53,149 bases of DNA from Longimicrobiales bacterium (GTDB taxonomy: Bacteria > Gemmatimonadota > Gemmatimonadetes > Longimicrobiales > RSA9). A program made the position numbers and the translations under genes. A model generated the notes under the pieces. It was not told where the DNA came from, searched no databases, and worked only from the letters and a program-made list of their open reading frames with translations. Shown here piece by piece: positions 5,677 through 36,857 of this stretch. The stretch covers positions 1 to 53,149 of the forward strand of contig DASTYK010000143.1 of the NCBI GenBank assembly GCA_035764935.1, in the 5' to 3' direction. How positions within the stretch are numbered: position 1 is the stretch's first letter; every line of letters begins with the position of its first letter.

Positions 5677-6078
5677 TCACCCCGGCTCCACCCACCCGCG
5701 CTTCTGCTCGTCGATCGAGCGGGTGATCGGGGCGACGGTATCGCCCGTGTGCGTCGTCGCAACCGGCTCGAACAGCGCAAGCCAGCACTCCTCCCGGGCG
5801 AGCGGCCTGTGGCGGACGCCCTTCGGCACGACGAACATGTCGCCTGCGTTCAGCGTCACCTGCTCCTGACCGTCGATCTCGATCAGCAGCGTGCCCCGGA
5901 GCACGAGGAACATCTCGTCCTCGTGCTCGTGGGCGTGCCATACGAAGTCGCCGTGTGCACGTGCGACCTTGACATAATGGTCGTTGACCCTGCCAACGAT
6001 GCGCGGCGAAAATATCTCGTCCAGGGCACCGGCGGCGTCGGCGAGGTTGACGGCGCGGGACGTCGTATGCGTCTGCAT
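5677..6078 (-). CDS. Cupin-domain protein
   Basis: Small 133-residue single-domain cupin, probably cytoplasmic. The metal-binding motif 1 reads HAHEHEDEMFLVLRG (His-x-His with a following Glu) and motif 2 reads GDMFVVPKGVRHRP, so the usual three His plus one Glu metal ligands are present. Cupins of this size include isomerases, dioxygenases and small-molecule sensors; I cannot tell which. The ATG at 6078 has AGGAG seven bases upstream and lies one base beyond the TGA of the MocR gene, so the two are almost certainly translationally coupled. This makes the cupin the last gene of a rhodanese-MocR-cupin operon and a likely partner or target of the regulator. Confidence 0.85.
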   Translation of the reverse strand: MQTHTTSRAVNLADAAGALDEIFSPRIVGRVNDHYVKVARAHGDFVWHAHEHEDEMFLVLRGTLLIEIDGQEQVTLNAGDMFVVPKGVRHRPLAREECWLALFEPVATTHTGDTVAPITRSIDEQKRGWVEPG

Positions 6079-6079
6079 T

Positions 6080-7669
6080 TCATCGCTCCTGTGACATGGC
6101 TGCCGTCTCCAGCAGCCGCGCGAGCCGGGCTGCGCCACTGTGGATTCGATCAGTGGCCGTCCCCGCGAAGTTGATCAGGAACCCGGGTTTCGCCGTTGGA
6201 CCCGCGTAGTAGCGGGACAGCGCGGGCAGATCGAGACACTCGTCGCGGGCCGCAGCCGAAAGTGCGAGGTCGTCCTGGCGCGCGCGCAGCTGTGCGGTGA
6301 CGTGCATGCCGGCTTCCGCCGGCCCCAGTTCCACGTGCTGTGTCAGCTGCTGCGCCGCCGCGTCCAGGAGTGCGTCACGGCGCTCGCGATAGATGTCGCG
6401 CGTGCGGCGGAGGTGGCTGGCGAACTGGCCGCTGTCGATGAACTCCGCAACGGCGGCCTGCAGGAATGTCGGCGGAGTTCCGCCCGTGATGTCCTGCCCG
6501 CTGGCAATCAGCTCCGTCAACCCCGGCGGCAGCACCAGGTACGCCAGTCGCAGCGACGGGTAGAGCACCTTGTTGAAGGTGCCGGCATAGATGACGCGAC
6601 CGTGCGTGTCGAGTCCCTGGATCGACGCGAGCGGCCTGCCGACGTAGCGGAACTCGCTGTCGTAGTCATCCTCCAGGATCCACGCATCGTTGCGTGCCGC
6701 CCAGTCGACGAGCGCCATCCGGCGCGCGAGCGTGAGCGTCACGCCCAGCGGGTACTGGTGTGATGGCGTGACGTACGCCATGCGCGCATCCGGCGCCAGC
6801 GCTTCGCCCGCGCGAATGTCGATGCCATCCCCATCCACCGGAACAGGCACCAGCTTCGCGCCCGAAAACATGAACGCCGTGCGCGCACCGGGATAGCCGG
6901 GTTCCTCCAGCCACACCGCGTCCCCCGGATCGAGCAGCATGCGACTCGCGAGCGCGATCCCCTGCTGGACACTGCCCACCACGAGCACCTGCCGCCAGTC
7001 GCAACGCACACCGCGGGAGGCAACGACATACGTCGCGATCGCCTCGCGCAGCGGACGGTAACCGGCACGCTCCGGCGGCAGCATCTCCGTGCGTGACCAC
7101 AGCCGGCTGCGCCTCGCGAGGATCTGCTTCCACCCGTTCAACGGCAGCACCTGCGCATCCGGTACGCACGGCGCAAATGCAAAACCGGTTCGCGACGTGA
7201 TCAGGTGATTCGAGTCGAGCGTCTGCCGTCCTCGTCCCGACAGCGCGCTCGCATCATGCGACGCTTCCGCGGCCGGTGACGTGCGCGCATGCGCGCGAAA
7301 GCGCTGCGGCGAACGCGGGTTCGCGGGAAGATCGGGCGCGACGATCGAGCCGGCTCCGACTCGCCGCTGCACGAAACCCTCCGCACGCAGCTGCTCCAGC
7401 GCCGATTCCACCGTGTTGCGCGAAACGCGCAGGTCCTCGGCAAGCGTCCGACTCGCGGGGAGCCGCTGGCCCGGAGAAAGTGCGCCGCTCACGATCGCGT
7501 CGCGCACGTGCTGATACAGACGCACGTACAAAGGCGCGTCCGCCGTTTCGTGGATGCCTTCCAGGATCTGCAGCACGGGAGCCGCACCCCGCCTCGGCGA
7601 CGTCGCATCGTCGCCGTTGCCCTGCGCAACCGTCGCACGAGGTCGTCGCTGCTGCTGTACGCTTTGCAC
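6080..7669 (-). CDS. MocR/PdxR-type transcription factor (GntR HTH fused to aminotransferase)
   Basis: The 529-residue protein joins an N-terminal winged helix of the GntR family (about residues 45-115, with ASRTLAEDLRVSRNTVESAL as the recognition helix region) to a fold-type I aminotransferase domain. The PLP Schiff-base lysine lies in GTFNKVLYPSLR and the phosphate/pyridine region in LEDDYDSEFR, both typical of MocR regulators that sense PLP or amino compounds and act as dimers. Known members control vitamin B6, GABA or taurine genes. The GTG start at 7669 is the only upstream option before a proline-poor basic leader. The gene follows the rhodanese after 22 bases and precedes the cupin by one base, so it may regulate its own operon. 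The ligand is unknown. Confidence 0.93.
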   Translation of the reverse strand: MQSVQQQRRPRATVAQGNGDDATSPRRGAAPVLQILEGIHETADAPLYVRLYQHVRDAIVSGALSPGQRLPASRTLAEDLRVSRNTVESALEQLRAEGFVQRRVGAGSIVAPDLPANPRSPQRFRAHARTSPAAEASHDASALSGRGRQTLDSNHLITSRTGFAFAPCVPDAQVLPLNGWKQILARRSRLWSRTEMLPPERAGYRPLREAIATYVVASRGVRCDWRQVLVVGSVQQGIALASRMLLDPGDAVWLEEPGYPGARTAFMFSGAKLVPVPVDGDGIDIRAGEALAPDARMAYVTPSHQYPLGVTLTLARRMALVDWAARNDAWILEDDYDSEFRYVGRPLASIQGLDTHGRVIYAGTFNKVLYPSLRLAYLVLPPGLTELIASGQDITGGTPPTFLQAAVAEFIDSGQFASHLRRTRDIYRERRDALLDAAAQQLTQHVELGPAEAGMHVTAQLRARQDDLALSAAARDECLDLPALSRYYAGPTAKPGFLINFAGTATDRIHSGAARLARLLETAAMSQER

Positions 7670-9373: not shown

Positions 9374-11041
9374 TCACTCGATCTTCTGCGGCCTGCTTGC
9401 GTTGAGGGCGTAGTTGAGGTTCCCCACGCGGAACCAGCGGTAGCCGTACGGGTCGAGCACGATCTCGTGGGTGCCGGACTTTCCGGCACGTGATTCCTCC
9501 TCGATGCGCAGCTCGACCAGTCGGTCGCTGTCCGCGGCGCGGGGACGCACGCGTGCACTGACTGCGCGCTCGGAGAAGTTGTGCAGGATCACGAGCGAGT
9601 TGCCGCGCCAGTCGTACTGCATGGCGAGCACGTGCGGGGAGCCGCTCCCGAGGATCCGCCATTCGCCCCAGCCGATCTCCGGGCACTCCTTGCGCAGCCG
9701 GATCATCGACGCATTCCAGTTGAGCAACGAGCCCGGATCGCGCTGCTGGCTTTCCACGTTCAGCCGCTCGTATCCGTACACGCCGCCACTGACGACGGGA
9801 TTGACCGGCCTGTCGGCGAGTGTGAAGCCGCCGTGGCGCTCGGAGGACCACTGCATGGGTGTTCGTACGGCCTCGCGCTCGGGGAGTGACAGGTCGTCGC
9901 CCATGCCGATCTCGTCACCGTACCGGAATGTCGGTGTGCCGGGCAGGGAGAACATGAGGCTGTGCGCGAGCTCGTAGTGCTGGCGGTCGCCGAGCATCGG
10001 TGCGAGACGACGTCGCACGCCGCGGTTGTATAGCCACATGCCGTCATCCGGTGCGAACCGCTGCGCCACGATCGCACGCCCCTTCGCATCCAGCCGTCCG
10101 AGATCCAGCTCGTCGTGCGTGCGCAGAAAGATGCCCCACTGGCACCCGTTCGGTACGCCGCGCGTCGCGCGCAGCGCATCGGCGAGCGGGGCAGCGCGCT
10201 CTGTGGCGAGGCTGAGAAACAGGTGCTGGTTGACCCAGAAGTTGAACAGCATCTGCATGCCTTCGCCGCGCGCGCCGAAGTACTGTTTCTCTTCGCCGGG
10301 CGGCACGTTGACTTCACCGAGCAGGAGGCCATTGCCGTTGCGCAGCTGGAGCAGCCGGCGCAGCTCGTAGAGGAAGTCGAACTCGCGATTCCAGGTCTTC
10401 CTGGTGACGTCGGGCACCTCGAGGATGAACGGAACCGCGTCGACCCGGAAGCCCGCCACGCCGTGCGACAGCCAGTAGCCCATCATGCGCCGGATCTCTT
10501 CGCGCACCTCGGGATTCTGCGTGTTCAGATCGGGCTGGAAATCGTAGAAACGGTGGTAGTAGTACGCCCGCGCCTTCTGGTCGTACGACCACGTGGACTC
10601 CTGGTGCCCGGGGAAGACCATGCCCTGGTCCCAGTACTTCGGCTTCTTCTTCGACCACACGTACCAGTCCCGGTAGCGCGACTCCGGATCACTGCGCGCC
10701 TGCCGGAACCAGGTATGCTGGTCGGATGTGTGATTGATGACCAGGTCGAGAATGACGCGCATGCCGCGCTTGTCAGCCTCGCGCATGAACTCGACGAAGT
10801 CCCCGCTCGAGCCGTAGCGCGGGTCGACGGCGTAGAAGTCGCTGATGTCGTAGCCGTCGTCCCGGTCCGGCGACTTCTGGAACGGGGCGAGCCAGAGCGT
10901 GTTGACGCCGAGCGCGTCGAGGTAGTCGAGTCGCCGGATCAGCCCCTCGAAGTCACCTACACCGTCGCCATTGGCGTCGAGAAACGTCTCGACGTCCAGG
11001 CTGTAGATGATCGCGTTGCGGTACCAGAGGTCTGCAATCAT
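9374..11041 (-). CDS. treS: GH13 alpha-glucosidase/trehalose-synthase-like enzyme
   Basis: Intramolecular isomerisation of maltose to trehalose is the likely reaction. The 555-residue protein has a complete GH13 barrel: the nucleophile Asp in FRVDAVPF, the acid/base Glu in LLLGEVNVP and the transition-state Asp in RTHDELDL. The N-terminus (WYRNAIIYSLDVETFLDANG), the DGYDISDFYAVDPRYG stretch and VINHTSDQHTWFRQAR follow the trehalose synthase (TreS) pattern closely. It lacks a fused maltokinase domain. Other GH13 subfamilies (oligo-1,6-glucosidase-like) remain possible because the local motifs are shared. No strong terminator separates it from the LLM gene behind it. Upstream, 11042-11166 has several CCGGATC/GGTGCCGG half-repeats but no gene. 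Confidence 0.8.
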   Translation of the reverse strand: MIADLWYRNAIIYSLDVETFLDANGDGVGDFEGLIRRLDYLDALGVNTLWLAPFQKSPDRDDGYDISDFYAVDPRYGSSGDFVEFMREADKRGMRVILDLVINHTSDQHTWFRQARSDPESRYRDWYVWSKKKPKYWDQGMVFPGHQESTWSYDQKARAYYYHRFYDFQPDLNTQNPEVREEIRRMMGYWLSHGVAGFRVDAVPFILEVPDVTRKTWNREFDFLYELRRLLQLRNGNGLLLGEVNVPPGEEKQYFGARGEGMQMLFNFWVNQHLFLSLATERAAPLADALRATRGVPNGCQWGIFLRTHDELDLGRLDAKGRAIVAQRFAPDDGMWLYNRGVRRRLAPMLGDRQHYELAHSLMFSLPGTPTFRYGDEIGMGDDLSLPEREAVRTPMQWSSERHGGFTLADRPVNPVVSGGVYGYERLNVESQQRDPGSLLNWNASMIRLRKECPEIGWGEWRILGSGSPHVLAMQYDWRGNSLVILHNFSERAVSARVRPRAADSDRLVELRIEEESRAGKSGTHEIVLDPYGYRWFRVGNLNYALNASRPQKIE

Positions 11042-15499: not shown

Positions 15500-16831
15500 G
15501 TGGAGGCAAGAGGAGAGGAACAGATCCGGGCAGTGATCATCGGCGCCGGCGCCCGTGGCAACCAGGTGTTCGCCGAGCTGATGCGGCGCCATGCCATGGG
15601 CTGGCGCGTGAGCGCCGTCGTGGAGCCGGACGAGCTGCGCCGCAGTGCGTTCTGCGTGCGGCACGAGATCCCGCCCGAGCGTGCCTTCCAGGACCTGGAG
15701 CAGCTGCTGGAGCAGCCGAAGCTCGGCGACGTCGCATTCATCTGCACGCCGGACGTGACCCACTACAGCATCTGCGCCCGTGTCTCGGCGGCAGGCTACG
15801 ATGTGCTGCTGGAGAAGCCGATTGCGACGTCGCTGCCCGACTGTCTCGCGCTGCTCGACGTGCAGCGAACGCATCGTAACCGTATCTTCGTCGCTCATGT
15901 CCTGCGCTACTCGCCCTTCTTTCGCACGCTGAAGGAGATCGTGGCGTCGCGCCAGTACGGCCTGGTGCGTAACATCCGGTTGACGGAAAACGTGGGGCAC
16001 TGGCACTTCGCGCACAGCTACGTGCGGGGGAGCTGGCGCAGGCGCGAGGACAGCGCACCGATCGTGCTGACGAAGAGCTCGCACGATCTCGACCTGATCG
16101 CGTGGCTGCTGGAGACCGATCGACCGGCGTTCGTCAGCTCGTTCGGCACGCTGGAGTACTTCACCCCGGTGAATGCGCCGCCCGAGGCGGCGGGTCGCTG
16201 CCTCGACTGCGTGCTCAAGGACACGTGCCGCTACAGCGCGACGCAGTTCTACCTGCACGATCGACCGGGCTGGCCGTACGACGTGGTCGCGCCTGCACAG
16301 GCGGGCATCGAGGCACGACACGAGGCGCTGCGCACCGGCCCGTACGGGCGGTGTGTCTGGCACTCGGACAACGACGTGTGCGACAACCAGACGGTGTCGA
16401 TCCAGTTCGAGTCCGGCATTCATGCGACGTTCGGGCTGTACGCACTGAGTGCCGACAACACGCGCCGTGTCACGGTGCTCACCGACGCAGCGGAGATCGG
16501 CGGCGACCTGCACCAGGGGCTGCTCACGGTGACGCCGCTGACCGGCCGCGTCGACGACGTGAGACCGGAGGCGATCGAGCTGCCGCAGGCCGAGGATCAC
16601 CATGGTGGTGGCGATTACATGCTGCTGCGAACGCTGTACGAGCATCTGACGACCGGTGCGCACGCGCACGTGATGAGCTCGCTGGAAAGCTCGATCGCGA
16701 GCCACGTGCTCGCGTTCCTGGCCGACGAGTCGCGTCGCATGGGCGGCTCACCGATGCCGGTCCCGGCGATCTTCCAGCTGTCGGGTATGGGCCGGCAGGA
16801 GGAGGACAGGGGCGCGGCGTGGAGCGCATGA
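15500..16831 (+). CDS. Gfo/Idh/MocA-family NAD(P)-dependent oxidoreductase
   Basis: The 443-residue protein has an N-terminal Rossmann domain (AVIIGAGARGNQVFAELMRR), the family motif LLEKPIATS with the catalytic Lys, and a C-terminal substrate domain. An inserted Cys cluster, RCLDCVLKDTCRYSA, with three Cys in C-x2-C-x5-C spacing, may bind metal; it recurs in one branch of the family. The enzyme should oxidise or reduce a sugar, inositol or sugar alcohol. The GTG at 15500 is chosen for AGGAG four bases upstream; in-frame sequence further upstream is arginine-rich. It overlaps the HAD phosphatase start by ATGA, so it is coupled to the phosphatase/GT20 pair and may handle the same solute or its precursor. 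Confidence 0.9.
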   Translation: MEARGEEQIRAVIIGAGARGNQVFAELMRRHAMGWRVSAVVEPDELRRSAFCVRHEIPPERAFQDLEQLLEQPKLGDVAFICTPDVTHYSICARVSAAGYDVLLEKPIATSLPDCLALLDVQRTHRNRIFVAHVLRYSPFFRTLKEIVASRQYGLVRNIRLTENVGHWHFAHSYVRGSWRRREDSAPIVLTKSSHDLDLIAWLLETDRPAFVSSFGTLEYFTPVNAPPEAAGRCLDCVLKDTCRYSATQFYLHDRPGWPYDVVAPAQAGIEARHEALRTGPYGRCVWHSDNDVCDNQTVSIQFESGIHATFGLYALSADNTRRVTVLTDAAEIGGDLHQGLLTVTPLTGRVDDVRPEAIELPQAEDHHGGGDYMLLRTLYEHLTTGAHAHVMSSLESSIASHVLAFLADESRRMGGSPMPVPAIFQLSGMGRQEEDRGAAWSA

Positions 16832-17637
16832 CCATACGATACGTGCTGGCCAGTGACCTGGACGGCACACTCGCGGACGGCAGCGACGAGGCACGTCGGG
16901 AGCTGATCGAGTGGCTGCAGGAGCGCGACGACGCCCGGCTCGTCTACGTGACGGGTCGCGCTCCCGCGTCCGCCCGGACGCTGATGCAGCGGGCGGCGCT
17001 GCCGGCGCCCGACGTGCTGATCGCCGATGTCGGAACCACTGTCCTCGAGGGTTCCTCGCTCGCGCCGATCGCGCCGATCGAGGCGGAGATGGAGCGGGAG
17101 TGGCCGGGAGCGGACGTGGTGCGCGAGCGACTCGCGCAGATGACGTCGCTGCGGCCCCAGGATGTCGACGCGCCGCGCCGCGTATCCTGGTGGATCGAGC
17201 CGGTGCGGCAGCAGCGCGCTCCCGGCGACGACCCCTTTGCGGCGCGCGCGCCGGATGATGCATCGATGCAGGCCGACGCAGCACGAATTGCACGGGAGGC
17301 CGGTGCCGAGGCGGCCGAGCGGCTGGCGCCACTTGCCGTCGATGTGCTGGTATCGGCGAACGTGTTTCTGGATGTGCTGCCGCGGGGAGTCAACAAGGGC
17401 AGCACACTGCTCCGCGTGCTCGAGTGGATGGGAGCGGACCGGGCGAGCTGTGTCGTGGCTGGCGATTCATTGAATGATCTTGCCCTGTTCACCACGGGCC
17501 TGCGCGGTATCGTGGTCGGCAACTGCGAGCCCGCGCTCGCGGAACGGGTGAACGGGATGGGACAGGTCTACCGCGCGCGGGAGGCCGGTGCGGGTGGTGT
17601 GCTCGAAGGGCTGCGCCATCACCGCTGGCTGGAATGA
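16828..17637 (+). CDS. HAD-superfamily sugar phosphatase (S6PP/TPP type), likely partner of the GT20 enzyme
   Basis: The 269-residue protein is a HAD IIB phosphatase. Motif I is DLDGTLAD (nucleophile and acid Asp), motif II lies in VTGRA, motif III Lys in GVNKGSTLLRVLEWMG and motif IV is AGDSLNDLALF. The C2-type cap and closeness to sucrose-phosphate and trehalose-phosphate phosphatases point to dephosphorylation of a glycosyl phosphate. It sits between the oxidoreductase (ATGA overlap) and the GT20 synthase (45 bases later), so it very probably removes the phosphate from the GT20 product. If GT20 is a glucosylglycerol-phosphate synthase, this is glucosylglycerol-3-phosphatase. Confidence 0.85.
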   Translation: MTIRYVLASDLDGTLADGSDEARRELIEWLQERDDARLVYVTGRAPASARTLMQRAALPAPDVLIADVGTTVLEGSSLAPIAPIEAEMEREWPGADVVRERLAQMTSLRPQDVDAPRRVSWWIEPVRQQRAPGDDPFAARAPDDASMQADAARIAREAGAEAAERLAPLAVDVLVSANVFLDVLPRGVNKGSTLLRVLEWMGADRASCVVAGDSLNDLALFTTGLRGIVVGNCEPALAERVNGMGQVYRAREAGAGGVLEGLRHHRWLE

Positions 17638-17682
17638 GCGCGCCGCACCGGACGTCGGCGGTGCAGGAGGGAGGAGGAGCAG

Positions 17683-19167
17683 ATGGCGGGCAGTGATTTC
17701 ATCGTGCTGTCGCACAGGGAGCCGTACCAGGAGCATACGACGCCGGAAGGCGACGTCGTACTGCGCCGGAAGACGAACGGTGTGTTCACGACACTGGACT
17801 CCGTGATGCGACAGAAACGCGGCACCTGGATCGCGTGGCGCGAGCACACGGAGGGCACCGAGTTCGTGCCGCGGGTGCGCGTACCGGATGCGGACGACCC
17901 GTCCGCCTACAACGTGCGTCGCATTCCGCTGACCCCGGACGAGGCCCGCCGCTTCTACTACGACTTCACCTCCACAGCGCTCTGGCCGGTGCTCTTCTCG
18001 CTGCTCGACAGGGCCCGCTTCACGGCGGAAGCGTGGGAGACCTACCAGCGTGTGAACCACATGTTCACGGATGCGGTGTGCGAAGAGGCCGCGCCGGATG
18101 CGCTCGTCTGGGTCAACGATTTTCACCTGATGCTGACTCCGCGGCTGATCAAGGAGCGGCGTCCCGATCTCCGGCTCGCGCTGTTCCTGCACACCACGTT
18201 TCCCCCACCCGACGTCTTCGGTATCCTGCCCTGGCGGGAGGAACTGCTGGACGGGCTGCTGCACCTCGACCTGATCGGCTTCCACATCGCATCGTACGCA
18301 CAGAACTTCGCCGATACGGCCGAGCGCTTCATGAACGCGGAGGTGCTCGCGGTCGAGGAATCGAGCCTGGTGAAGCACGGGCCGGCGGTCGCAGTGCCGC
18401 GCTATCCGCGCACGCTGCGGTATGGCGAGCGGCGCATCGAGCTGGGCGAGTTCCCCGTCGGCGCGGACGTCGACTACTTCACGGGCGAGGCGCAGGCGGA
18501 GACGACGAAGCACGCCGCGGAGGAGGTGCGCGAGCGGACCGGCGCGGACACGATCATCGTCTCGGCCGAGCGACTGGACTACGTCAAGGGCGTGCTGGAG
18601 CGGCTGGAGTGCTTCGAGCGCTACCTGGAGCGTCACCCGGAACGCCACGGCAACGTGTCCTTCATCCAGATCGCCGTGCCGACGCGCACGGGGATGGAGG
18701 AGTTCCAGGCGATGCGGCGGCAGGTCGAGGAGGCGGTCGGCAGGATCAACGGCCGCTTCGGCGGGCTGGAGTGGCAGCCCGTGCTGCACCTGTACGGTTC
18801 GCTCGACCGTCCCGAGCTGGTTGGCCTTTACGTTGCCGCGGACATAGCGTGGGTCACACCGTTGCGCGACGGCCTGAACCTGGTCGCCAAGGAGTACGTG
18901 GCGGCGCAGATTGGCGGGACCGGTGCCGTCATCCTGTCCGAGTTCGCCGGGGCGGCGGCCGAGCTGCGCGGCGCGATCCTGACCAACCCGTACTCGCCCG
19001 ACGACATGGATCGCGCGCTCGAAGAGGCAATGGACATGGACGAAGGGGAGCGCACGGGGCGCATGCTGATGCTGCGGGACCGCGTGCTGTCCTGGGACGT
19101 GCACCGCTGGTCCCGGGCATTTCTCGACGCGGCGGAGCGCGCAGGCGCAGCGACCGCGCATACCTGA
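17683..19167 (+). CDS. ggpS: GT20 glycosyltransferase, probable glucosylglycerol-phosphate synthase
   Basis: Transfers glucose from a nucleotide sugar to a phosphorylated acceptor. The 494-residue protein has the GT20 core: HTTFPPPDVFGILPWREELL, SAERLDYVKGV (Arg and Lys that bind the donor phosphates), TPLRDGLNLVAKEYVAAQ and ILSEFAGAAAELRGA. Several features match glucosylglycerol-phosphate synthase (GgpS) better than trehalose-6-phosphate synthase: the start IVLSHREPY, RRKTNGV where OtsA has its GGL loop, GTWIAWRE, WVNDFHLML where OtsA has HDYHL, and INGRF. The comparison is from memory. GgpS uses ADP-glucose and glycerol-3-phosphate and makes an osmolyte. GGAGG upstream supports the start. 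Trehalose-6-phosphate synthase remains the alternative. Confidence 0.85.
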   Translation: MAGSDFIVLSHREPYQEHTTPEGDVVLRRKTNGVFTTLDSVMRQKRGTWIAWREHTEGTEFVPRVRVPDADDPSAYNVRRIPLTPDEARRFYYDFTSTALWPVLFSLLDRARFTAEAWETYQRVNHMFTDAVCEEAAPDALVWVNDFHLMLTPRLIKERRPDLRLALFLHTTFPPPDVFGILPWREELLDGLLHLDLIGFHIASYAQNFADTAERFMNAEVLAVEESSLVKHGPAVAVPRYPRTLRYGERRIELGEFPVGADVDYFTGEAQAETTKHAAEEVRERTGADTIIVSAERLDYVKGVLERLECFERYLERHPERHGNVSFIQIAVPTRTGMEEFQAMRRQVEEAVGRINGRFGGLEWQPVLHLYGSLDRPELVGLYVAADIAWVTPLRDGLNLVAKEYVAAQIGGTGAVILSEFAGAAAELRGAILTNPYSPDDMDRALEEAMDMDEGERTGRMLMLRDRVLSWDVHRWSRAFLDAAERAGAATAHT

Positions 19168-19187: not shown

Positions 19188-20264
19188 ATGGCCGTGCAGG
19201 GTCGGCAGACGGAAGACATCACCAGCGCTCGCGTGCTGATCGTCGACGACGAGGAGGCGGTGATCCGCCTGACGGAGCGCGTGCTCAGCCGTCAGGGCAT
19301 TGCGAACATCCGGACCACGACCGACCCGCGGCGGGTGCTGCCGCTGTTCCGGGAAGTGGAGCCCGACCTGGTGCTGCTGGACCTCCACATGCCCGGGCTC
19401 GACGGCTTCGCAGTGCTCCGGCAGCTCACCGCGCGCGTGCCCGAGGGTGAGTACCTGCCGATCCTGGTCGTCTCGGGTGACCTCACGGCAGAAGCCAAGC
19501 AGAAGGCACTCTCGTTCGGGGCCAGCGACTTCGTGCACAAGCCGTTCGACGTCGCCGAGCTGCAGCTGCGCGTGCGCAACCTGCTGCGCATCCGCGAGAT
19601 GACGGGCCGACTCGAGCAGCGGGTGCGGGATACCGCCACGGAGGCAACGGTCGCCGAGCTGGAGCACGTGAGCCGCCTGGCGCTGGTCGCGGAGCTCTCC
19701 GATTATGGCGATGGCGCGCACGTGCAGCGGGTCGGGCGCACCTCGGCCCTGGTCGGCGAGCGGCTCGGCATGGAGCCCGACGAGGTGCACCGGCTGCGCT
19801 ATGCCGCGCCGCTGCACGACATCGGCAAGATCGCGCTGCCGGACAGCATTCTCCTCAAGCCGGACGCGCTCTCGCTGGACGAGTGGGACGTGCTCAAGAC
19901 GCACACCACGATCGGCGCCCAGATGTTCACGGGCAGCCGCTCCCTGATCCTGCAGATGGCCGAGGAAATCGCGCTTTACCACCACGAAAACTGGGACGGC
20001 ACCGGCTACACGCCCGGGCTCGGCGGCGCCGACATTCCCCTCGTCGGCAGGATCGTTGCAGTGGCGGATGTATTCGACGCCCTCACGCACGAGCGGCCGT
20101 ACAAGGCGGCGTGGTCCGTGGAGGACACGGTGGAGTGGATGGAGAGCATGCGGGGGCGGAAGTTCGACCCCGGCGTGCTCGACGCGCTCTTCGCCGTTCT
20201 CGGTACGCAGGACCTCGCCACGCTCGACCCGGAGGACGAGGCGCTCGGGTACACGATCATCTGA
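19188..20264 (+). CDS. Response regulator with HD-GYP-type (c-di-GMP phosphodiesterase) output domain
   Basis: The 358-residue protein has an N-terminal receiver (residues about 15-135; phospho-acceptor Asp in PDLVLLDLHMPG, Lys in FVHKPFD), a short helical linker and an HD-GYP domain. The HD pair is in PLHDIGKIALPDSIL, followed by HTTIGAQMF and HHENWDGTGYTPGL. The name-giving GYP is GYT here, with the Pro one place later; all metal ligands (H, HD, H, HH, D) look present. It should hydrolyse cyclic di-GMP when phosphorylated. No histidine kinase is adjacent. It follows the GT20 gene by 20 bases and precedes the duplicated membrane protein by 13, so it is part of that operon and may couple signalling to solute synthesis. 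Confidence 0.93.
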   Translation: MAVQGRQTEDITSARVLIVDDEEAVIRLTERVLSRQGIANIRTTTDPRRVLPLFREVEPDLVLLDLHMPGLDGFAVLRQLTARVPEGEYLPILVVSGDLTAEAKQKALSFGASDFVHKPFDVAELQLRVRNLLRIREMTGRLEQRVRDTATEATVAELEHVSRLALVAELSDYGDGAHVQRVGRTSALVGERLGMEPDEVHRLRYAAPLHDIGKIALPDSILLKPDALSLDEWDVLKTHTTIGAQMFTGSRSLILQMAEEIALYHHENWDGTGYTPGLGGADIPLVGRIVAVADVFDALTHERPYKAAWSVEDTVEWMESMRGRKFDPGVLDALFAVLGTQDLATLDPEDEALGYTII

Positions 20265-28593: not shown

Positions 28594-29817
28594 TCATCCC
28601 GTTGCGTGCGCGACCGGCGTCTCCTGCCGTGCGACCTTCTGCGCCGGCTTCGGCGGCAGTGCGGCCAGGATCGGGAAGCGCCGGACGATGAAGATGTAGG
28701 CCGCGATCTCGGCCGCGACGAGTCCCACCGTGACCATGATCTCCCCGACGGACGGGAAGTACACCGCGCCCGGAGCCGGCTGGTACGCGATCAGAAAGAC
28801 CGAGAAGCGGTAGAGAGTTCCCGCGAGCAGGATCAGCATGCCGCCGCGGAACAGGTTGCTGCGCGCGATGTTCGGCTGCAGCAGCACACCGATGCTGGCG
28901 ACGGCGAGCAGCATCTCGACGGTGAACCAGAACGTGAAGCGGTCGAACGCGAGCAGCAGGCCGAGCTGGCCGCGCAATGCGAGGTCGCCGACGCGCAGCA
29001 CGAGGAACAGGCCCATCAATCCGGCGGCAATGCGTCCCAATGGGGCCAGCAGCCGGTACTCGGACGGGCGGCCGAACGCCCGGCTCGAGACCGACGACTC
29101 GAGCACCACGCCGCCATAGCCCATCGCGATGCAGGTGATCAGGAAGAGCAGGGGCAGCAGTGGTGTGCTCCAGAGCGCGTGCACCTTCGGTCCCGCGAGC
29201 AGCATCAGCGAGCCGAGCGACGACTGGTGCATCGTCGGCAGCAGGATGCCGAGCGCGATGATGAACGGCAGTGCGCGCTCCATGCGTGGCAGCCAGCGCT
29301 CGGAGAAACGGCGCAGTCCGGGATTGCGGGCCGCGCGTCCGCCCTCGAGGAACGCGGGTGCCAGCTCGATCCATCCGACGAACACGTAGAGCGTGATGCA
29401 GAGCGCGACCTCGAGCAGGATCGAGTTGAGGTTCCAGCTCCACACGGCAGCGAGGCCGTAGAGGTTCCAGTAGCGGCCGAGGTCGATCACCACGCTCAGC
29501 CCCGCGATCGTGTAGCCGAGCGCGCTGGTCAGGATCGCCGACCGCACGAGCGGGTGGTACTGCCCGCGGTTGAGTGCGTAGACGAGGATCGCGACTGCAT
29601 AGCCACCGCAGGCGATCGCTGTGCCGGTCACGACGTCGAACGCGATCCAGATCCCCCAGGGATACGCGTCCGACAGCGCGGTGACCGAGCCGATCCCGAA
29701 CAGGAATCGCCAGGCGAGGATCGCCGCGGCAATGCCGACGAGGCCGAGCAGGACCAGGTACGAGGGTGTCATCAGGCGCCCGCCGACGGGCGCAGCCGCT
29801 GCGTGTGCCATGCTCAT
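28594..29817 (-). CDS. hybB: NiFe-hydrogenase integral membrane subunit HybB (NrfD/PsrC family)
   Basis: Membrane subunit that passes electrons between the HybA Fe-S protein and the quinone pool and can move protons. The 407-residue protein has about ten membrane helices and no heme-ligating His pattern, as usual for the NrfD/PsrC fold. Landmarks are SDAYPWGIWIAFDVVTGTA near the N-terminus, YTIAGLSVVIDLGRYWNLYG and the long central SSLGSLMLLAGPKVHALW. The start ATG overlaps the HybA stop (ATGA). As the last gene of the structural operon it completes a Hyd-2-type four-subunit enzyme facing the periplasm. Confidence 0.93.
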   Translation of the reverse strand: MSMAHAAAAPVGGRLMTPSYLVLLGLVGIAAAILAWRFLFGIGSVTALSDAYPWGIWIAFDVVTGTAIACGGYAVAILVYALNRGQYHPLVRSAILTSALGYTIAGLSVVIDLGRYWNLYGLAAVWSWNLNSILLEVALCITLYVFVGWIELAPAFLEGGRAARNPGLRRFSERWLPRMERALPFIIALGILLPTMHQSSLGSLMLLAGPKVHALWSTPLLPLLFLITCIAMGYGGVVLESSVSSRAFGRPSEYRLLAPLGRIAAGLMGLFLVLRVGDLALRGQLGLLLAFDRFTFWFTVEMLLAVASIGVLLQPNIARSNLFRGGMLILLAGTLYRFSVFLIAYQPAPGAVYFPSVGEIMVTVGLVAAEIAAYIFIVRRFPILAALPPKPAQKVARQETPVAHATG

Positions 29818-30707
29818 GCCTCCCGGTTCTCTGCGGCGGCGTCGTCCGCGGGCGGCTGCCGGCGATTGCGCCACACCGAAACGGCGAGCACACCGTACAG
29901 CGCGATCGGCGCGATGAATCCCTTGTAGACAGCGTGCTGAATCGTTTCCGGCAGGCTTGGCACGGAGCGTGTGCCGAGATCGGGCAGGCCGAGACTGGCA
30001 AACTGAACGCCCCGTGGCGCCAGGTAGAGCACCTGCGTGCCGCCGCCGTCGAACTCGCCGTACACCTTCGCCTCGTAGCGCTCCGGCTCTGCCTCGAGCC
30101 GCCGATGCGCCTCGGCGAGCAGCTCCTCGCGCGTGCCGTAGATCACGGCCTGGCGCGGGCAGACCTCCACGCACGCCGGAATGCCGCCCTCGGCGATCCG
30201 GTGCGCGCACAGCTCGCATTTCACGATCTTCGGCAGGGCCGCGTTCCACTCGAACTGCGGCACGCCGTACGGGCAGCCGATCTGGCAATACCGGCAGCCG
30301 ACGCACTTGCTGCCGTCCCACGTGACGATGCCGTGCTCCCGCTTCTGGAACGCGCCCAGCATGCACGCCGACACGCACCCCGGATCGACGCAGTGCATGC
30401 ACTGCATCTTCATGAACGAGGACTGCTCGCCGTCGCTGTAGTACTTGATGATGTTCTTGGTGTTGCCGGAGAGCGAGTCGGGCGAGTCCCAGCGGCTCTC
30501 CGGATCCTCCGGCTTCAGACCGTTCGCCTCACGACAGGCGACCATGCATGCCTTGCAGCCGACGCACAGCGTCGCATCGTAGAGCAGGCCGACGGCGTCG
30601 GCAGGCGCCTGTTTCGGCTCGCGCGCGTGTGCGGGCGCGACTGTCGAGGCAACTGCCGCCCCCGCGGCGGCCAGCGTCTTGAGCGCGGAACGACGGGACA
30701 ACGACAT
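29814..30707 (-). CDS. hybA: HybA-type periplasmic ferredoxin subunit with four [4Fe-4S] clusters
   Basis: Electron relay between the hydrogenase small subunit and HybB. The 297-residue protein starts with a twin-arginine signal (SRRSALK then a hydrophobic stretch, cut after AHA). Four Cys sets follow: CVGCKACMVACREAN, CMHCVDPGCVSAC, CVGCRYCQIGC and CELCAHRIAEGGIPACVEVC, enough for four cubane clusters. A C-terminal hydrophobic helix (GFIAPIALYGVLAVSVW) anchors it, as in HybA of E. coli hydrogenase 2. GGAGGTGAGC before the ATG at 30707 supports the start over the upstream in-frame alternative at 30770. It begins two bases before the end of the spacer after the maturation protease. Confidence 0.94.
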   Translation of the reverse strand: MSLSRRSALKTLAAAGAAVASTVAPAHAREPKQAPADAVGLLYDATLCVGCKACMVACREANGLKPEDPESRWDSPDSLSGNTKNIIKYYSDGEQSSFMKMQCMHCVDPGCVSACMLGAFQKREHGIVTWDGSKCVGCRYCQIGCPYGVPQFEWNAALPKIVKCELCAHRIAEGGIPACVEVCPRQAVIYGTREELLAEAHRRLEAEPERYEAKVYGEFDGGGTQVLYLAPRGVQFASLGLPDLGTRSVPSLPETIQHAVYKGFIAPIALYGVLAVSVWRNRRQPPADDAAAENREA

Positions 30708-30709
30708 GC

Positions 30710-31285
30710 TCACCTCCCCGCGATCGGGGGTGACAGTGCTGGATGAGACAGTGTTTCCATGCGCAGCCACCAGAGGTCCGGCGCTTCGGGCTCCGACCGT
30801 TGCCGGACCGGCCGGCCGAGCCGCGCCAGCTCCTCTGCAACTGCGGCCAGCGCGTCCGGTACGCTGCGGAGTACGGCGTCGCTCAGACCGAGGTGCGTAT
30901 CCACCGTCTCCGGGACGACGCCGACGAGAACCACGTCCTGCGGCGCGCTGCCCTGCAGCTCGAGCAGCATGAGCGTCGCGCCGAGCCCGGGATCGTGCGG
31001 GCTCAGCCGCTCCTTCGGCGGCTGCCGCACCAGGTCCGCCTTCCGATAAATCCGGATGCTGCCGGGCGGCGCGTCGAGCCGGACCGTGTCCAGCACGATG
31101 ACGGCCTCGTAGACCATGAGGTATGGTGAGAGGTCCAGCCCCGGTGTGCCGACGTCCGTTACGGCGACATCCGGGTGCAGCTCGTACGCGGCGCTGAAGC
31201 AGCGGGCCGCGTACGGGCCGAAGCCGTCATCATGCATGAGCACGTTGCCGAGGCCGAGAACGCCGCAGGCCGGTGCCGGTCTCAT
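30710..31285 (-). CDS. hybD: Hydrogenase maturation endopeptidase (HyaD/HybD family)
   Basis: Removes the C-terminal peptide of the large subunit after nickel insertion. The 191-residue protein has the HycI/HybD fold: GLGNVLMHDDGFGPY (first nickel-sensing acidic residue; Asp where HybD has Glu), then DVGTPGLDL (second acidic residue) and LSPHDPGL with the His ligand. It is longer than HybD (164) through a C-terminal tail. Its ATG overlaps the large-subunit stop, so it is made together with its substrate. Placing the protease between the catalytic and electron-transfer genes differs from the E. coli hyb order (OABCDEFG). Confidence 0.92.
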   Translation of the reverse strand: MRPAPACGVLGLGNVLMHDDGFGPYAARCFSAAYELHPDVAVTDVGTPGLDLSPYLMVYEAVIVLDTVRLDAPPGSIRIYRKADLVRQPPKERLSPHDPGLGATLMLLELQGSAPQDVVLVGVVPETVDTHLGLSDAVLRSVPDALAAVAEELARLGRPVRQRSEPEAPDLWWLRMETLSHPALSPPIAGR

Positions 31286-32988
31286 GAGCCGAGCACCTTC
31301 ACGCGCGAGACCTCGTTGCCCTCGACGTCCTGCGTGTGGATCGCACAGGCGATGCACGGGTCGAACGAATGGATCGTGCGGATCACCTCGAGCGGCCGCT
31401 CGGGGTCGGCCACCGGATTCGCGATCAGCGACGCCTCGTAGGGGCCGAGCCGGTTGCGCTCGTCACGCGGGCCCGCGTTCCATGTGGAGGGCACGACGGC
31501 CTGGTAGTTCCTGATCGCGCCGTCGTCGATCACGACCCAGTGGGACAGCGTGCCGCGCGGCGCCTCGTGGAAGCCGAAGCCGCGCACCTCGCCCTTCGGG
31601 AAGACCGGCTCGTTGAACGTCGCGGTGTCGCCCGACCCGATGTTGTCGAGCAGCAATTGCCAGTGCTTCGGGCCGAGGTCAGCCAGCACACTGGCGCGGA
31701 TCGCGCGCGCGAGATGGCGCCCCAGCGTCGAGTGCAGTGCACCGATACCGACCTCCGTGCCCGCGATCGATGACGCAGTTGCAAGTGCGAGGTCCACGTA
31801 CTGACGGAAGCGCGGATCACCCGCCGCGTAGCCGACGAGCACGTGCGCCAGCGGTCCGACCTGCATGGGTTCGCCGTTGAAGCGCGGCGCCTTCACCCAC
31901 GAGTACCTGCCGTCGTCCTGGAAGCCGGTGTAGTTCGGGACCGTATCCTCCTCGTAGGGATGCCGCGTCCAGTCGCCATCGTACCACGCATGCGCGATGG
32001 ACTCGGTGACACCATCGCGGAAGTAGGCATCGTCGAACCGGGTGATTGGCCGGTACGTGCCGAGGTCCCGGTTCATGATCGTGCCGCCGGGCAGGTCGAA
32101 CTCCGTGCCGGCCGTGTCGAGCGGCAGGTCGGGCACGGCGAGGTAGTTGGTGACGCCGGCACCGTGGCCGAGCCACTCCGGGTACATCGCGCCGACCGCG
32201 ATCACGTCCAGCAGATACACCTGGTGCACGAACTGCGAGACCTCGCCGAGCAGGCTCTGCACCTGCGCGAGCTTCGTCATGTTCAGCGTCGCCTGGTTGT
32301 CCAGGTTGATCGCGTTCGCGACACCGCCCACGGCCAGGTTCTGGATGTTCGGCGTCTTGCTGCCCAGGATCGCGACGACCTGGTTCGCCTTGCGCTGGTA
32401 CTCGAGCGCCTGCAGGTAGTGCGCTGTGGCCAGCAGGTTCACCTCCGGCGACAGCCGCATCGCCGGGTGCCCCCAGTAGCCGTTGGTGAAGATGCCGAGC
32501 TGACCGCTGTCGACGACCGACTGCACCTTGTCGCGCACGGCGGACAGCTCGCGCCAGTGGTTGTGCGGCCACTCCGAAATGCTGTCCGCGATGCGTGCGG
32601 CCTCTCGCGGGTCGGCCTTCAACGCAGACGTGACATCCACCCAGTCCAGCGCCGAGAGGTGATAGAAGTGCACGATGTGATCGTGCAGCGCGTGCGCGAT
32701 CAGGATCAGGTTGCGGATGTACTGCGCATTCTTCGGCACTTCCAGATTCAGCGCGTTCTCCACAGCGCGCACCGATGCGATCGCGTGCACGGTGGTGCAC
32801 ACGCCGCAGATGCGCTGCGTGAACAGCCAGGCCTCACGCGGATCGCGCCCCTCGAGGATCAGCTCGATGCCGCGCCACATCGTCCCCGAGGACCACGCAT
32901 TGCGCACCGCGCCACCATCGACCTCCACGTCGACGCGCAGGTGACCCTCGATGCGGGTCACGGGGTCGACCACGATTCGCTGACTCAT
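31282..32988 (-). CDS. hybC: [NiFe]-hydrogenase large (catalytic) subunit, group 1
   Basis: Carries the Ni-Fe active site that splits H2. The 568-residue protein has both Cys pairs: RICGVCTTVHA (L1 motif, N-terminal) and DPCIACAIH (L2 motif) near the end. The 17 residues after that His (TQDVEGNEVSRVKVLGS) are the peptide removed by the maturation protease, and VDPVTRIEGHLRVDVEVDG is the conserved start. No selenocysteine. It has no own signal and would be exported by Tat with the small subunit. The sequence and the HybA/HybB partners place it in group 1 (membrane-bound respiratory uptake); subgroup (1c, 1f or 1l) needs a tree. Its ATG overlaps the small-subunit stop. Confidence 0.96.
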   Translation of the reverse strand: MSQRIVVDPVTRIEGHLRVDVEVDGGAVRNAWSSGTMWRGIELILEGRDPREAWLFTQRICGVCTTVHAIASVRAVENALNLEVPKNAQYIRNLILIAHALHDHIVHFYHLSALDWVDVTSALKADPREAARIADSISEWPHNHWRELSAVRDKVQSVVDSGQLGIFTNGYWGHPAMRLSPEVNLLATAHYLQALEYQRKANQVVAILGSKTPNIQNLAVGGVANAINLDNQATLNMTKLAQVQSLLGEVSQFVHQVYLLDVIAVGAMYPEWLGHGAGVTNYLAVPDLPLDTAGTEFDLPGGTIMNRDLGTYRPITRFDDAYFRDGVTESIAHAWYDGDWTRHPYEEDTVPNYTGFQDDGRYSWVKAPRFNGEPMQVGPLAHVLVGYAAGDPRFRQYVDLALATASSIAGTEVGIGALHSTLGRHLARAIRASVLADLGPKHWQLLLDNIGSGDTATFNEPVFPKGEVRGFGFHEAPRGTLSHWVVIDDGAIRNYQAVVPSTWNAGPRDERNRLGPYEASLIANPVADPERPLEVIRTIHSFDPCIACAIHTQDVEGNEVSRVKVLGS

Positions 32989-34100
32989 GCGTTGCTCCCG
33001 GGCTCGGGCTGCGTCTCCGTTTCCATCTTCTTCGCGGCGCGCACACCGGCCCCGACGAGACCGCCAACGACCAGTCCGGCAACGCCGGTAGCGATCGCGC
33101 CGACATTCCCGGCAGGTGCCGATATGGGCGCATGCCCGGCTCCCGGTGTCGTGAAGGGAATGCCGATGGTGGCGTGCAGCGGGACCTTGAAGGCGATGTC
33201 CTGCTCCGTGCATCCGAAGCACGGGTGGCCGATGCCGATCGGCCATGCGTCCGGCACGTCACAGAACGCCTGGGTCGAGCAGTTCGCGAAGGTCTGCGGC
33301 CCCTTGCAGCCGAGCTCGTAGAGGCACCAGCCCTGGCGGTGCCCCTCGTCACCGAACTTCTTCGCGAAACGGCCCGCATCGAAGTGCGGCCGGCGCGGGC
33401 AGTGCTCGTGGATCGTGCGGCCGTACGCGAACAGCGGGCGGCCCTTGTCATCGAGTGCCGGCAGCGACCCGAGTGTCGCGTACTGCAGCACCACGCCAAG
33501 GAAGTTGTACGGGTTGGGCGGGCAGCCCGGGATCGTGACCACGGTCTTCCCGGCCAGCACCTGCGGTGCGCCCTGCGCGCCGGTCGGGTTGGGACCGGAC
33601 GACGGGATGCCGCCCCAGGATGCACAGCTGCCGATGGCGATGATCGCGCCGGCCTGCGCGGCAGTCTCCTCCAGCATGTCCACGGCCGTCTGGCCACCGA
33701 TCATGCAGTAGATGCCGTTGTCCTTCGTCGGGATCGCGCCTTCGACCACGAGCACGTACTTGCCGGCATTGTCCGCCATGGCCTGGCGGCGCGCGGCCTC
33801 GGCCTGGTGGCCTGCGGCGACGAACAGGGTTTCGTGGTAGTCGAGGGACACGAAGTCGAAGATGACGTCGGCGATGTCGGGGTGGCTCGCGCGCAGCAGC
33901 GACTCCGTACACCCCGTGCACTCCTGGAAGTGCAGCCAGATGACCGACGGCTTGCGACCCGCCTGCGCCTCCTGCGCGAAGCTCGCCGCCACCTGCGATG
34001 GCAGCCCCACCGCCGCCGCGGCGAGCGAACACACCTTGAGAAAGTCACGGCGGTCGACCACCGTGGCCGCGGACTTCCGCAGCAGCATCTCCGGAACCAT
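32985..34100 (-). CDS. hybO: [NiFe]-hydrogenase small subunit with Tat signal
   Basis: Electron-transfer subunit with three Fe-S clusters. The 371-residue precursor has a twin-arginine signal (DRRDFLKVCSLAAAAVG, cut after SFA or nearby). Proximal cluster Cys lie in ECTGCTES, GSCASWGG and PGCPPNP; distal and medial ligands in EHCPRRPHF, GWCLYELGCKGP, NCSTQAFC and HPCFGCTEQ. Both extra Cys of oxygen-tolerant enzymes are Gly here (CTG rather than CTC, and SWGG rather than SWGC), so the proximal cluster should be a standard [4Fe-4S]. A C-terminal hydrophobic helix (GAIATGVAGLVVGGLVGAG) anchors it. AGGAGG four bases before the ATG at 34100 fixes the start. Confidence 0.96.
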   Translation of the reverse strand: MVPEMLLRKSAATVVDRRDFLKVCSLAAAAVGLPSQVAASFAQEAQAGRKPSVIWLHFQECTGCTESLLRASHPDIADVIFDFVSLDYHETLFVAAGHQAEAARRQAMADNAGKYVLVVEGAIPTKDNGIYCMIGGQTAVDMLEETAAQAGAIIAIGSCASWGGIPSSGPNPTGAQGAPQVLAGKTVVTIPGCPPNPYNFLGVVLQYATLGSLPALDDKGRPLFAYGRTIHEHCPRRPHFDAGRFAKKFGDEGHRQGWCLYELGCKGPQTFANCSTQAFCDVPDAWPIGIGHPCFGCTEQDIAFKVPLHATIGIPFTTPGAGHAPISAPAGNVGAIATGVAGLVVGGLVGAGVRAAKKMETETQPEPGSNA

Positions 34101-34425
34101 GCGACCTCCTGTAACCGTCGCCGTCAGGCGGGAGCCTGTGGCCGCTGCGCAGGAGGACGAACACTCGTTCGAGGTCTGCGACAGCGATGAATCGCACGTC
34201 GCCGGCAGAGGGGGGAGTACCGCCGATGGTCCTATTCCTAGGGTGCGGTGCTGTGCGCGGGTGTAGGGCAGTGGCGGAACCTGCGTAGGGCAGGCCCCCA
34301 GCCAGGCAGGGTGCGGCTGCCGCATCTGCCGGAAATGGGCAGAACTGCGACGTGGTGCCGCGTGCCGACGCTGCGTGCAGGGCGCCGGCACGCGGGGGCG
34401 GGAGCCGCGGAGCGATGCGGAGGAT
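34101..34425 (-). promoter_or_regulatory. Gap between hyp and structural hydrogenase genes; probable promoter region
   Basis: No gene is supported in this stretch upstream of the small-subunit gene. It contains two direct copies of GTAGGGCAG, at 34263-34271 and 34285-34293, spaced 22 bases (two helical turns), and a further TGGGCAG at 34336-34342 that is part of an inverted pair with CTGCC (34326-34330). On the minus strand TGGCTGGGGGCCTGC (34304 down to 34290) has the GG-N10-GC geometry of a sigma-54 promoter, though several bases differ from the consensus. Confidence 0.35.
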
Positions 34426-34450
34426 ACGACGGCTGCGCGCCCGCCGTCGT
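34426..34450 (-). terminator. Hairpin overlapping the hypE stop codon
   Basis: ACGACGGC (34426-34433) and GCCGTCGT (34443-34450) form a perfect 8-bp stem with a 9-base loop that begins in the hypE stop codon. It probably ends or attenuates the hyp transcript before the structural genes. Confidence 0.5.
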
Positions 34451-35505
34451 CAGCAGATGCGGGGCAGCTGCTCGCCGCTCAGCATCTCGATCGCGCGCAG
34501 CCCGCCGATGCGGCTGCGCTGGAGCACATGACCCGGGTGTTCGTCCGTCACCGTTCCGATGCGCGCGGCGTCCCTGCCGAGCGGATGCGCGCGCAGCGCG
34601 TCGAGTGCCTGCTCGGCACGATCCGCTGCCACAAAGGCGATCAGCTTGCCCTCATTGGCGACGTACAGCGGATCGAAGCCGAGGATCTCGCATGCGCCAC
34701 GCACCTCGTCGAGCACCGGGATCGCAGCCTCGTCGATGCGGATCCCGACGCGGGCCGAGTCCGCGATCTCGCACAGCGCGGATGCGACGCCGCCACGCGT
34801 CGGATCGCGCAGGACGTGCACATCGGTGCCGATCGCATCGAGCAGGGCGGCGACCATGCCGTGCAGCGCCGCAGAGTCGGTCGCCAGCGCGGTCTCGAAT
34901 TCGAGGCCTTCGCGGATCGACATGATGGCGATGCCGTGGGTGGCGATCGAGCCGCTCACGAGCACGGCGTCGCCCGGCCGGGCGCGGCGCGGCGCGAGCT
35001 CGATGCCGGCCGGCACGATGCCGACACCCGTCGTGTTGATGAAGATGCCGTCGCCCTTGCCGCGGTCGACGACCTTGGTGTCACCCGTGACGATCGGCGT
35101 GCTCGCGGCCGCCGCGGCGTTGCGCATGGACAGTGCGATGCGCCACAGGTCCGCCATCGGGAACCCCTCCTCCAGGATGAACCCGGCGGACAGCGCCAGT
35201 GGCCGCGCACCGCACATGGCCAGGTCGTTGATCGTGCCGTGCACCGCCAGCGACCCGATGTCGCCGCCCGGGAAGAAGGGCGGATCGATCACGTAGGAAT
35301 CGGTCGAGAAGGCGACGCGGCCGCCGTGCACGTCGAGCACGGCGCCGTCGTGCAGCGCGGCGAGTACGTCGTTCGGGTACGCGCCCAGGAAGATCTTCTC
35401 GACCAGTGTGCGCGACAGCCTGCCGCCGCCGCCGTGCGCGAGCACGACGTTCGGGTAATCGACGATCGGCAGCGGGCACTCGAGCTGCATCGTCTCCACG
35501 CTCAT
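34450..35505 (-). CDS. hypE: Hydrogenase maturation factor HypE
   Basis: Dehydrates the thiocarboxamide on its own C-terminal Cys to a thiocyanate that supplies the CN ligands of the active-site iron. The 351-residue protein ends in the required PRIC. The ATP-binding AIR-synthase fold is visible in [52 protein letters not shown] and [15 protein letters not shown]. The ATG at 35505 overlaps the HypD stop. It is the last gene of the hyp operon. Confidence 0.97.
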
Positions 35506-36593
35506 ACGAGCACCCTCCCGTAGTTGTAGTACGCGGCGCAGGCACCCTCGGAGGAGACCATCGGTGCGCCGAGCGGGTGCTCCGGTGTGCAGCGCCTGCC
35601 AAAGGCGGGGCACTCGTGCGGCTTGTGGTGGCCCTGCATGATCGCGCCGGAGATGCACTCCGCAGGCTCATCGGCGGTGATCGCGCCGACCTGGAAGCGC
35701 AGCTCGGCGTCGTGTGCGGCGAACTCGGGGCGCAGCGACAGCCCGCTCGCGGGGATCTCGCCGATGCCGCGCCACTTCCGCTCGCCCGCCATGAACACCT
35801 GCGTGACGATCTGCTGCGCGAGCGTGTTGCCCTCGCGGCGCACGGCGCGCACGTACTGGTTCTCCACGCCGATGCGCCCGTCCTCCAGCATGTCGATGAG
35901 CATCAGCGTGCCGTGCAGCAGGTCGAGCGGCTCGAACCCCGTGACGACCATGGGCACCTGGTACTTCTGCGCGATCGGCTCATACTCGTGGTAGCCCATG
36001 ATCGCGCAGACGTGCCCCGCGGCGAGGAACCCCTGCACGCGGTTGGTCGCGGCACCGAGGATTGCCTCCATGGCGGGCGGCACGAGCACGTGCGAGACCA
36101 GCATGCTGAAGTTGTGGACACCGCGGTGCGCGGCTTCCCACACGGCCATGGCATTCGCGGGCGCTGTCGTCTCGAACCCCACGGCGAAGAACACCACCTC
36201 GCGCCCGGGGTTCTGCTGCGCGATGCGCACGGCATCGAGCGGCGAGTACACGATGCGGACGTCGCCACCCGCGGCCTTGACGCTGAGCAGGTCCGTCTCG
36301 CTGCCCGGCACGCGCAGCATGTCTCCGAACGACGTGAAGATGACGCCCGGCATGCGCGCGATCGCGATCGCGCGGTCGATCATCTCGAGCGGCGTGACAC
36401 ACACCGGGCAGCCCGGGCCGTGCACGATGTGCACCTGCTCCGGCAGCATGCGGTCGATGCCGAACTTGATCAGCGTGTGCGTCTGTCCGCCGCACACCTC
36501 CATGAGCGTCCACTCGCGTGTGACGCGCTGGTGGATCGCGGCGAGCATCTTCTGCGCGTCGGCCGCATCGCGGTACTCGTCGACGTATTTCAT
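35502..36593 (-). CDS. hypD: Hydrogenase maturation factor HypD
   Basis: Scaffold on which the Fe(CN)2CO group is assembled together with HypC. The 363-residue protein has the conserved EVCGGQTH (essential Cys), [21 protein letters not shown] and VGFETTAPA motifs and the four Cys of the [4Fe-4S] cluster in [18 protein letters not shown] and [13 protein letters not shown] overlaps link it both to HypC upstream and HypE downstream. Confidence 0.97.
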
Positions 36594-36856: not shown

Positions 36857-36857
36857 G

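Follow-up and report, generated by a model that had tools for sequence, protein, structure and literature searches.

A rare GT20 glycosyltransferase lineage of Gemmatimonadota, encoded together with a GgpP-type phosphatase and, in most members, a Gfo/Idh/MocA oxidoreductase

The window studied here, a DNA stretch of 53,149 nucleotides, is contig C143 of a Longimicrobiales genome (G000, a Gemmatimonadota assembly of 3.83 Mb, 96 % complete). It contains a three-gene operon for a Gfo/Idh/MocA oxidoreductase, a HAD phosphatase and a glycosyltransferase of family GT20, to which the trehalose-6-phosphate synthase (TPS) OtsA and the glucosylglycerol-phosphate synthase GgpS also belong. Judged from its sequence, the GT20 enzyme is a member of a rare lineage that is neither OtsA nor GgpS, and in alignments it is a mosaic of a GgpS-type donor loop and an OtsA-type acceptor-phosphate site. 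We see about an even chance that its genes form a glucoside pathway of two steps whose acceptor differs from both glycerol-3-phosphate and plain glucose-6-phosphate. The product would probably be a small glucoside acting as a compatible solute, the osmotic purpose being the more tentative part of this suggestion.

Results

The oxidoreductase gene (15500-16831, on the plus strand like the rest of the operon; 443 amino acids) has a GTG start downstream of AGGAG, and its stop codon overlaps the start of the phosphatase gene in an ATGA read in the sequence at 16828-16831. The phosphatase gene (16828-17637; 269 amino acids) encodes a sucrose-phosphatase-like HAD-IIB protein (PF05116, 161.9 bits). 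The GT20 gene (17683-19167; 494 amino acids) starts 45 bases past the end of the phosphatase gene and is preceded by a Shine-Dalgarno-type sequence, AGGAGGGAGGAGGAG (17664-17680), a strong GGAGG site also read in the sequence. An earlier note on this DNA had proposed the three genes and their ATGA coupling, and the sequence bears this out.

All three genes were found in the same order and reading frames in two other genomes, G011 and G015, and the arrangement is thus a conserved and selected operon rather than a product of chance. The four-base overlap of the oxidoreductase and phosphatase genes recurs in G011 (L035, 7844-7847). Between G000 and G011 the non-synonymous (dN) and synonymous (dS) divergences were 0.18 and 1.06 for the oxidoreductase (dN/dS ~0.17), 0.29 and 1.10 for the phosphatase (~0.26) and 0.125 and 1.16 for the GT20 enzyme (~0.11), indicating purifying selection on each gene. 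A fourth genome, G031, carries the phosphatase/GT20 pair without the oxidoreductase gene. The GT20 proteins of G011, G031 and G015 are 84, 72 and 68 % identical to that of the window, respectively. These four genomes were the only ones with the lineage in a sample of 395 Gemmatimonadota genomes (fragmented assemblies), with all 154 genomes of the order searched; beyond the phylum the sampling consisted of plasmids, phages and one peptide scan. A contig scan with six exact GT20 peptides, one of them WVNDFHLM, which is present in all four members, gave just two matches, the copy in G015 and a short relic in L034. This relic (6001-6205; assembly OFTM400, Gemmatimonadota) is a frame-broken piece of about 200 bases, its surroundings hold no more GT20 sequence, and it may reflect either gene loss or a chimeric join.

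The window enzyme scored 437.8 bits with PF00982 against a gathering cut-off of 32.5, and its donor-site residues are intact. With the NCBIfam models, all four lineage members were below every cut-off. For the window enzyme the scores were 485 bits with the GgpS model TIGR02398 (cut-off 569, i.e. 84 below; orthologues 480-496), 443 with the OtsA model TIGR02400 (cut-off 565) and 493 with NF011071 for bifunctional trehalose-6-phosphate synthase/phosphatase (TPS/TPP; cut-off 634, i.e. 141 below), the last being its best NCBIfam score. The same GgpS model gave 653-684 bits for the fused phosphatase-synthases (GgpPS) of G003 and G019, of the same family/order, and for a separate GgpS of Tistrella. 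In a tree of 53 proteins (4 of the lineage, 17 GgpS-type and 32 TPS-type) the lineage grouped together (support 100/100) and stood outside both the GgpS-type clade (100/99) and the TPS clade (100/99). The tree is unrooted and has no cyanobacterial GgpS, and whether GgpS or TPS is the sister side is not readable from it. The mean identity of the GT20 enzyme was 39.8 % to GgpS compared to 35.3 % to TPS. With scores under both cut-offs and a separate clade, the name glucosylglycerol-phosphate synthase is not supported. The earlier note had called the enzyme GgpS-like rather than OtsA: the second half of this holds, as the enzyme does not cluster with TPS and is slightly nearer to GgpS in identity, but it misses the GgpS cut-off, does not cluster with GgpS either and has kept the two glucose-6-phosphate contacts that are missing from GgpS. 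All four lineage genomes also carry a separate OtsA-type GT20 protein, and that of the window has an OtsB.

Residues are numbered here as in mycobacterial OtsA, with Arg335 of the window enzyme (18685-18687) corresponding to Arg324. In the mycobacterial enzyme the donor contacts include Gly39, His168, Arg286, Lys291, Asp385 and Glu393, and glucose-6-phosphate is contacted by Arg18, Tyr90, Asp144, Gln146 and Arg324 (PMC6879718). All six donor contacts are conserved in the four lineage members, and so are the five acceptor positions, where residue 146 is a His like that of the E. coli enzyme. In the loop RRKTNGV (17764-17784) Asn replaces the first Gly of the OtsA pair, as in GgpS, while the donor-contact Gly is kept, and the His preceding Arg18 is likewise common to the window enzyme and GgpS. 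At the acceptor site the 17 GgpS-type proteins all have Lys95, Asn146 and Trp148, which the window enzyme lacks, and in all of them Arg324, the acceptor-phosphate residue, is replaced by Ala, Asn or Glu. Position 95, Asn in TPS and Lys in GgpS, is Ser in the window lineage. In the motif NDFHL (18115-18129) Asn stands for His/Gln143 and Phe for Tyr145, two changes unique to the lineage, beside the OtsA-type His146; positions 95, 143 and 145 are all (nearly) invariant in TPS. Since the OtsA-type acceptor residues including Arg324 are kept, glycerol-3-phosphate is not the favoured acceptor, a reading based on alignment to one solved enzyme. A red-algal relative that uses glycerol-3-phosphate, PhTPS4, has no counterpart of an Arg of the glucose-6-phosphate site (PMC6642608). 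No PDB chain named as GgpS was matched.

With the enzyme a mosaic, the motifs from which the earlier note had argued for GgpS point there only in part. RRKTNGV, WVNDFHL, HREPY and INGRF are all present, and GgpS does have the Asn-Gly loop and the His that precedes the Arg. WVNDFHL, by comparison, was absent from every GgpS examined, which read HDYNLW, and its His is of the OtsA type. REPY is also present in the OtsA-like protein of the same genome, and INGRF, or a motif close to it, in both families. Fused HAD-GT20 proteins of Streptomycetaceae plasmids (L047, L048, L051 and L052), which carry no annotation beyond 'HAD-IIB family hydrolase' where they are annotated, formed a long branch attached to GgpS; in these proteins the Arg324 position is Glu and Tyr90 is Phe.

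The phosphatase has intact motifs I-IV (DLDGT, VTGR, the Lys of GVNKG, and GDSLND). In the HAD tree it is nested in a 17-row GgpP-type group of GgpPS domains and split GgpP proteins, and it joins separately encoded GgpPs with support of 95/93; the proposal of a GgpP-type phosphatase directly upstream of the GT20 gene thus stands. Among the 395 genomes, phosphatases of this type were confined to the 14 that have GgpS or the window-lineage GT20, and to G093. An insertion of about 30 amino acids in the cap, around QRAPGDDPFAARAPDDASMQADAAR, is carried only by the G000 and G011 proteins.

The oxidoreductase is a Gfo/Idh/MocA protein (PF01408, 70.2 bits) with a Rossmann fold, an invariant LEKP catalytic-lysine motif, an SSHDLDLI motif and five invariant Cys residues (C230, C233, C239, C281 and C290, numbered as in alignment A1). 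It did not reach the cut-off of any named equivalog of the family, the best being IolG with 62.6 against 355 bits. When the PDB was searched with a profile of the oxidoreductase alignment, the matches lay mostly in the N-terminal half and were to many members of differing function, and no substrate can therefore be read from them. Orthologues at 54-78 % identity occur in five other Gemmatimonadota. The six genomes out of 395 with an oxidoreductase of at least 54 % identity all lie within the 14 that combine a GgpP-type phosphatase with GgpS or the window-lineage GT20 (chance 3e-7 by genus, ignoring kinship); three of them have the window-lineage GT20 and three (G003, G019 and G332) a fused GgpPS. 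More distant relatives (36-40 %) lie in varied gene clusters, of which several serve the uptake and degradation of sugars or glycosides, and a viral contig scan contained no relatives. Within genus g4 the oxidoreductases of G003 and G011 are 82 % identical and apparently adjoin the same upstream gene (predicted proteins judged by eye); the gene seems to have been inherited in place.

Discussion

From what is known of the GT20 and HAD families, the operon is expected to catalyse a glucosylation followed by a dephosphorylation: the GT20 enzyme would move glucose from a nucleotide sugar onto a phosphorylated acceptor, and the HAD enzyme would then strip the phosphate from the product. The oxidoreductase would most likely make the acceptor or modify a sugar part; by analogy with the glycerol-3-phosphate dehydrogenase of similar operons, it may supply a different acceptor, although this role is weakly indicated. 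The phosphate site favours a hexose-phosphate-like acceptor, and a molecule that places its phosphate as OtsA-bound glucose-6-phosphate does, such as the phosphate of a hexose, a modified hexose or a polyol, would tentatively be more likely than glycerol-3-phosphate. More doubtful is the further idea of a third functional class of GT20 enzymes, which would glucosylate a new phosphorylated sugar or polyol provided by the Gfo/Idh/MocA enzyme and so give an undescribed compatible solute. The third step expected in the earlier note is plausible by analogy with operons of glycerol-3-phosphate dehydrogenase, HAD phosphatase and ggpS, but its glucosylglycerate-type product is unsupported and was rejected; the operon showed no gene of the GpgS type, and no search for one was made beyond it.

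Several observations weigh against the proposed pathway. The AlphaFold models were of low mean confidence, with a predicted local distance difference test score of 36.5 for the GT20 enzyme (one sequence) and 40.7 for the oxidoreductase (two sequences). G031 has the phosphatase/GT20 pair without any oxidoreductase, and in G003, G019 and G332 the oxidoreductase lies on a different contig from the fused GgpPS and is not tied to the window-lineage GT20. It is thus quite possible, though not the reading we prefer, that the oxidoreductase is a mere neighbour from general sugar metabolism with no part in the pathway, and the sugar and glycoside clusters of its distant relatives would agree with this. 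Against it speak the four-base overlap with the phosphatase gene in G000 and G011, the adjacency in G015, and the presence of a GgpP-type phosphatase with GgpS or the window-lineage GT20 in all six genomes that have a close orthologue.

The remaining adverse points concern the acceptor and lead towards a divergent glucosylglycerol-phosphate synthase, which would use glycerol-3-phosphate and, like the fused GgpPS of the relatives, make glucosylglycerol-phosphate from it. The phosphatase is nested inside the GgpP types and groups with split GgpPs, and the GT20 enzyme is slightly closer to GgpS in identity, with which it has five strictly fixed positions in common (His17, Asn38 and three more) compared to one with TPS. 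In genus g4, G011 has the window-type pair and G003 a fused GgpPS, the one in place of the other, and the two could therefore do the same job; the oxidoreductase is common to both kinds of genome. Together with the phosphatase type, this exchange favours something near glucosylglycerol. We nevertheless consider a glycerol-3-phosphate acceptor unlikely, since the enzyme lies outside the GgpS clade and 84 bits short of a cut-off that the scanned GgpS of Gemmatimonadota and Tistrella clearly exceed, lacks Lys95, Asn146 and Trp148 and keeps the Arg324 that all GgpS-type proteins have lost. A further trehalose-6-phosphate synthase, divergent and paired with a phosphatase of its own, would explain the five conserved glucose-6-phosphate positions and the top score with the TPS/TPP model, and redundant trehalose routes are common, but it is quite unlikely given the deficit of 141 bits to that model's cut-off, the altered positions 17, 38, 95, 143 and 145, (nearly) invariant in TPS, the place outside the TPS clade, the GgpP/SPP-type rather than OtsB partner, and the OtsA-like protein and OtsB that the genome already has.

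GT20 enzymes differ by their acceptor, and there is no GgpS crystal structure to back the residues that change it from glucose-6-phosphate into glycerol-3-phosphate. The window lineage separates the donor-loop changes from those of the acceptor site and offers a natural test of which of them set specificity. The enzyme is also a candidate for the making of a new solute. It would probably be called a trehalose or a glucosylglycerol synthase by automatic annotation, and either name may be wrong. In the literature we found no paper that deals with a glucosylglycerol-phosphate synthase of Gemmatimonadetes, and a term search in part of the papers naming both glucosylglycerol and Gemmatimonadota gave no description of such a system.

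Around the operon, a response regulator gene with an HD_5 domain (19188-20264) begins 20 bases past the GT20 gene, and its place is taken by an unrelated gene in G011. On the other strand, 4.4 kb ahead of the operon, a gene (9374-11041) encodes a GH13 protein whose nearest model is the trehalose synthase TreS (582 bits, cut-off 678). As far as the flanks of the other operon copies were read, they lack the GH13 gene, and a partial GH13 match occurs near the separate Tistrella GgpS. Further away, the minus strand carries a [NiFe] hydrogenase region (28594-39946) with the large subunit (31282-33246), a HycI maturation protease, HypD, HypF and an NrfD-type membrane protein.

The fused GgpPS of Stenotrophomonas and Marinobacter (PMC10873239), as well as those of G003 and G019, combine the same two families with a related HAD domain and the phosphatase first. 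The window proteins, in contrast, are separate, the GT20 enzyme is of another lineage, and its residues 95, 146, 148 and 324 are not GgpS-type. Downstream of the fused genes in three Gemmatimonadota loci (L090, L091 and L092) a sodium:solute symporter, likely the transporter of the solute made, follows within a few bases (PF00474 tested in L091 only). OtsA of E. coli and M. thermoresistibile (5JIJ; PMC6879718) is of the same GT20 family and has the donor contacts and the five glucose-6-phosphate contacts in common with the window enzyme, which differs in having NG for the GG loop, in positions 17, 95, 143 and 145, and in a partner that is not OtsB. A lead for the oxidoreductase comes from the dehydrogenase of kanosamine operons, by comparison of operon content alone. 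NtdC and KabC are members of the Gfo/Idh family. These glucose-6-phosphate 3-dehydrogenases are encoded with a sugar-phosphate phosphatase, as in the window, but the window operon has no aminotransferase (PMC8788734).

The split, phosphatase-first layout is already known and is not new: separate phosphatase-then-GgpS genes occur in Tistrella and in the Gemmatimonadota G117 and G064, and the unfused arrangement to which the earlier note pointed is not unusual, such pairs being present in Alphaproteobacteria and other Gemmatimonadota. Closely similar operons are those of Dinoroseobacter shibae (pDSHI02) and Falsirhodobacter algicola, which have the same dehydrogenase-HAD-GT20 order with a four-base first overlap and the nearest HAD relatives of the window phosphatase. 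In these Rhodobacterales the GT20 gene is annotated ggpS and the upstream gene, a Gfo/Idh/MocA oxidoreductase in the window, is annotated as a glycerol-3-phosphate dehydrogenase, which presumably supplies the acceptor.

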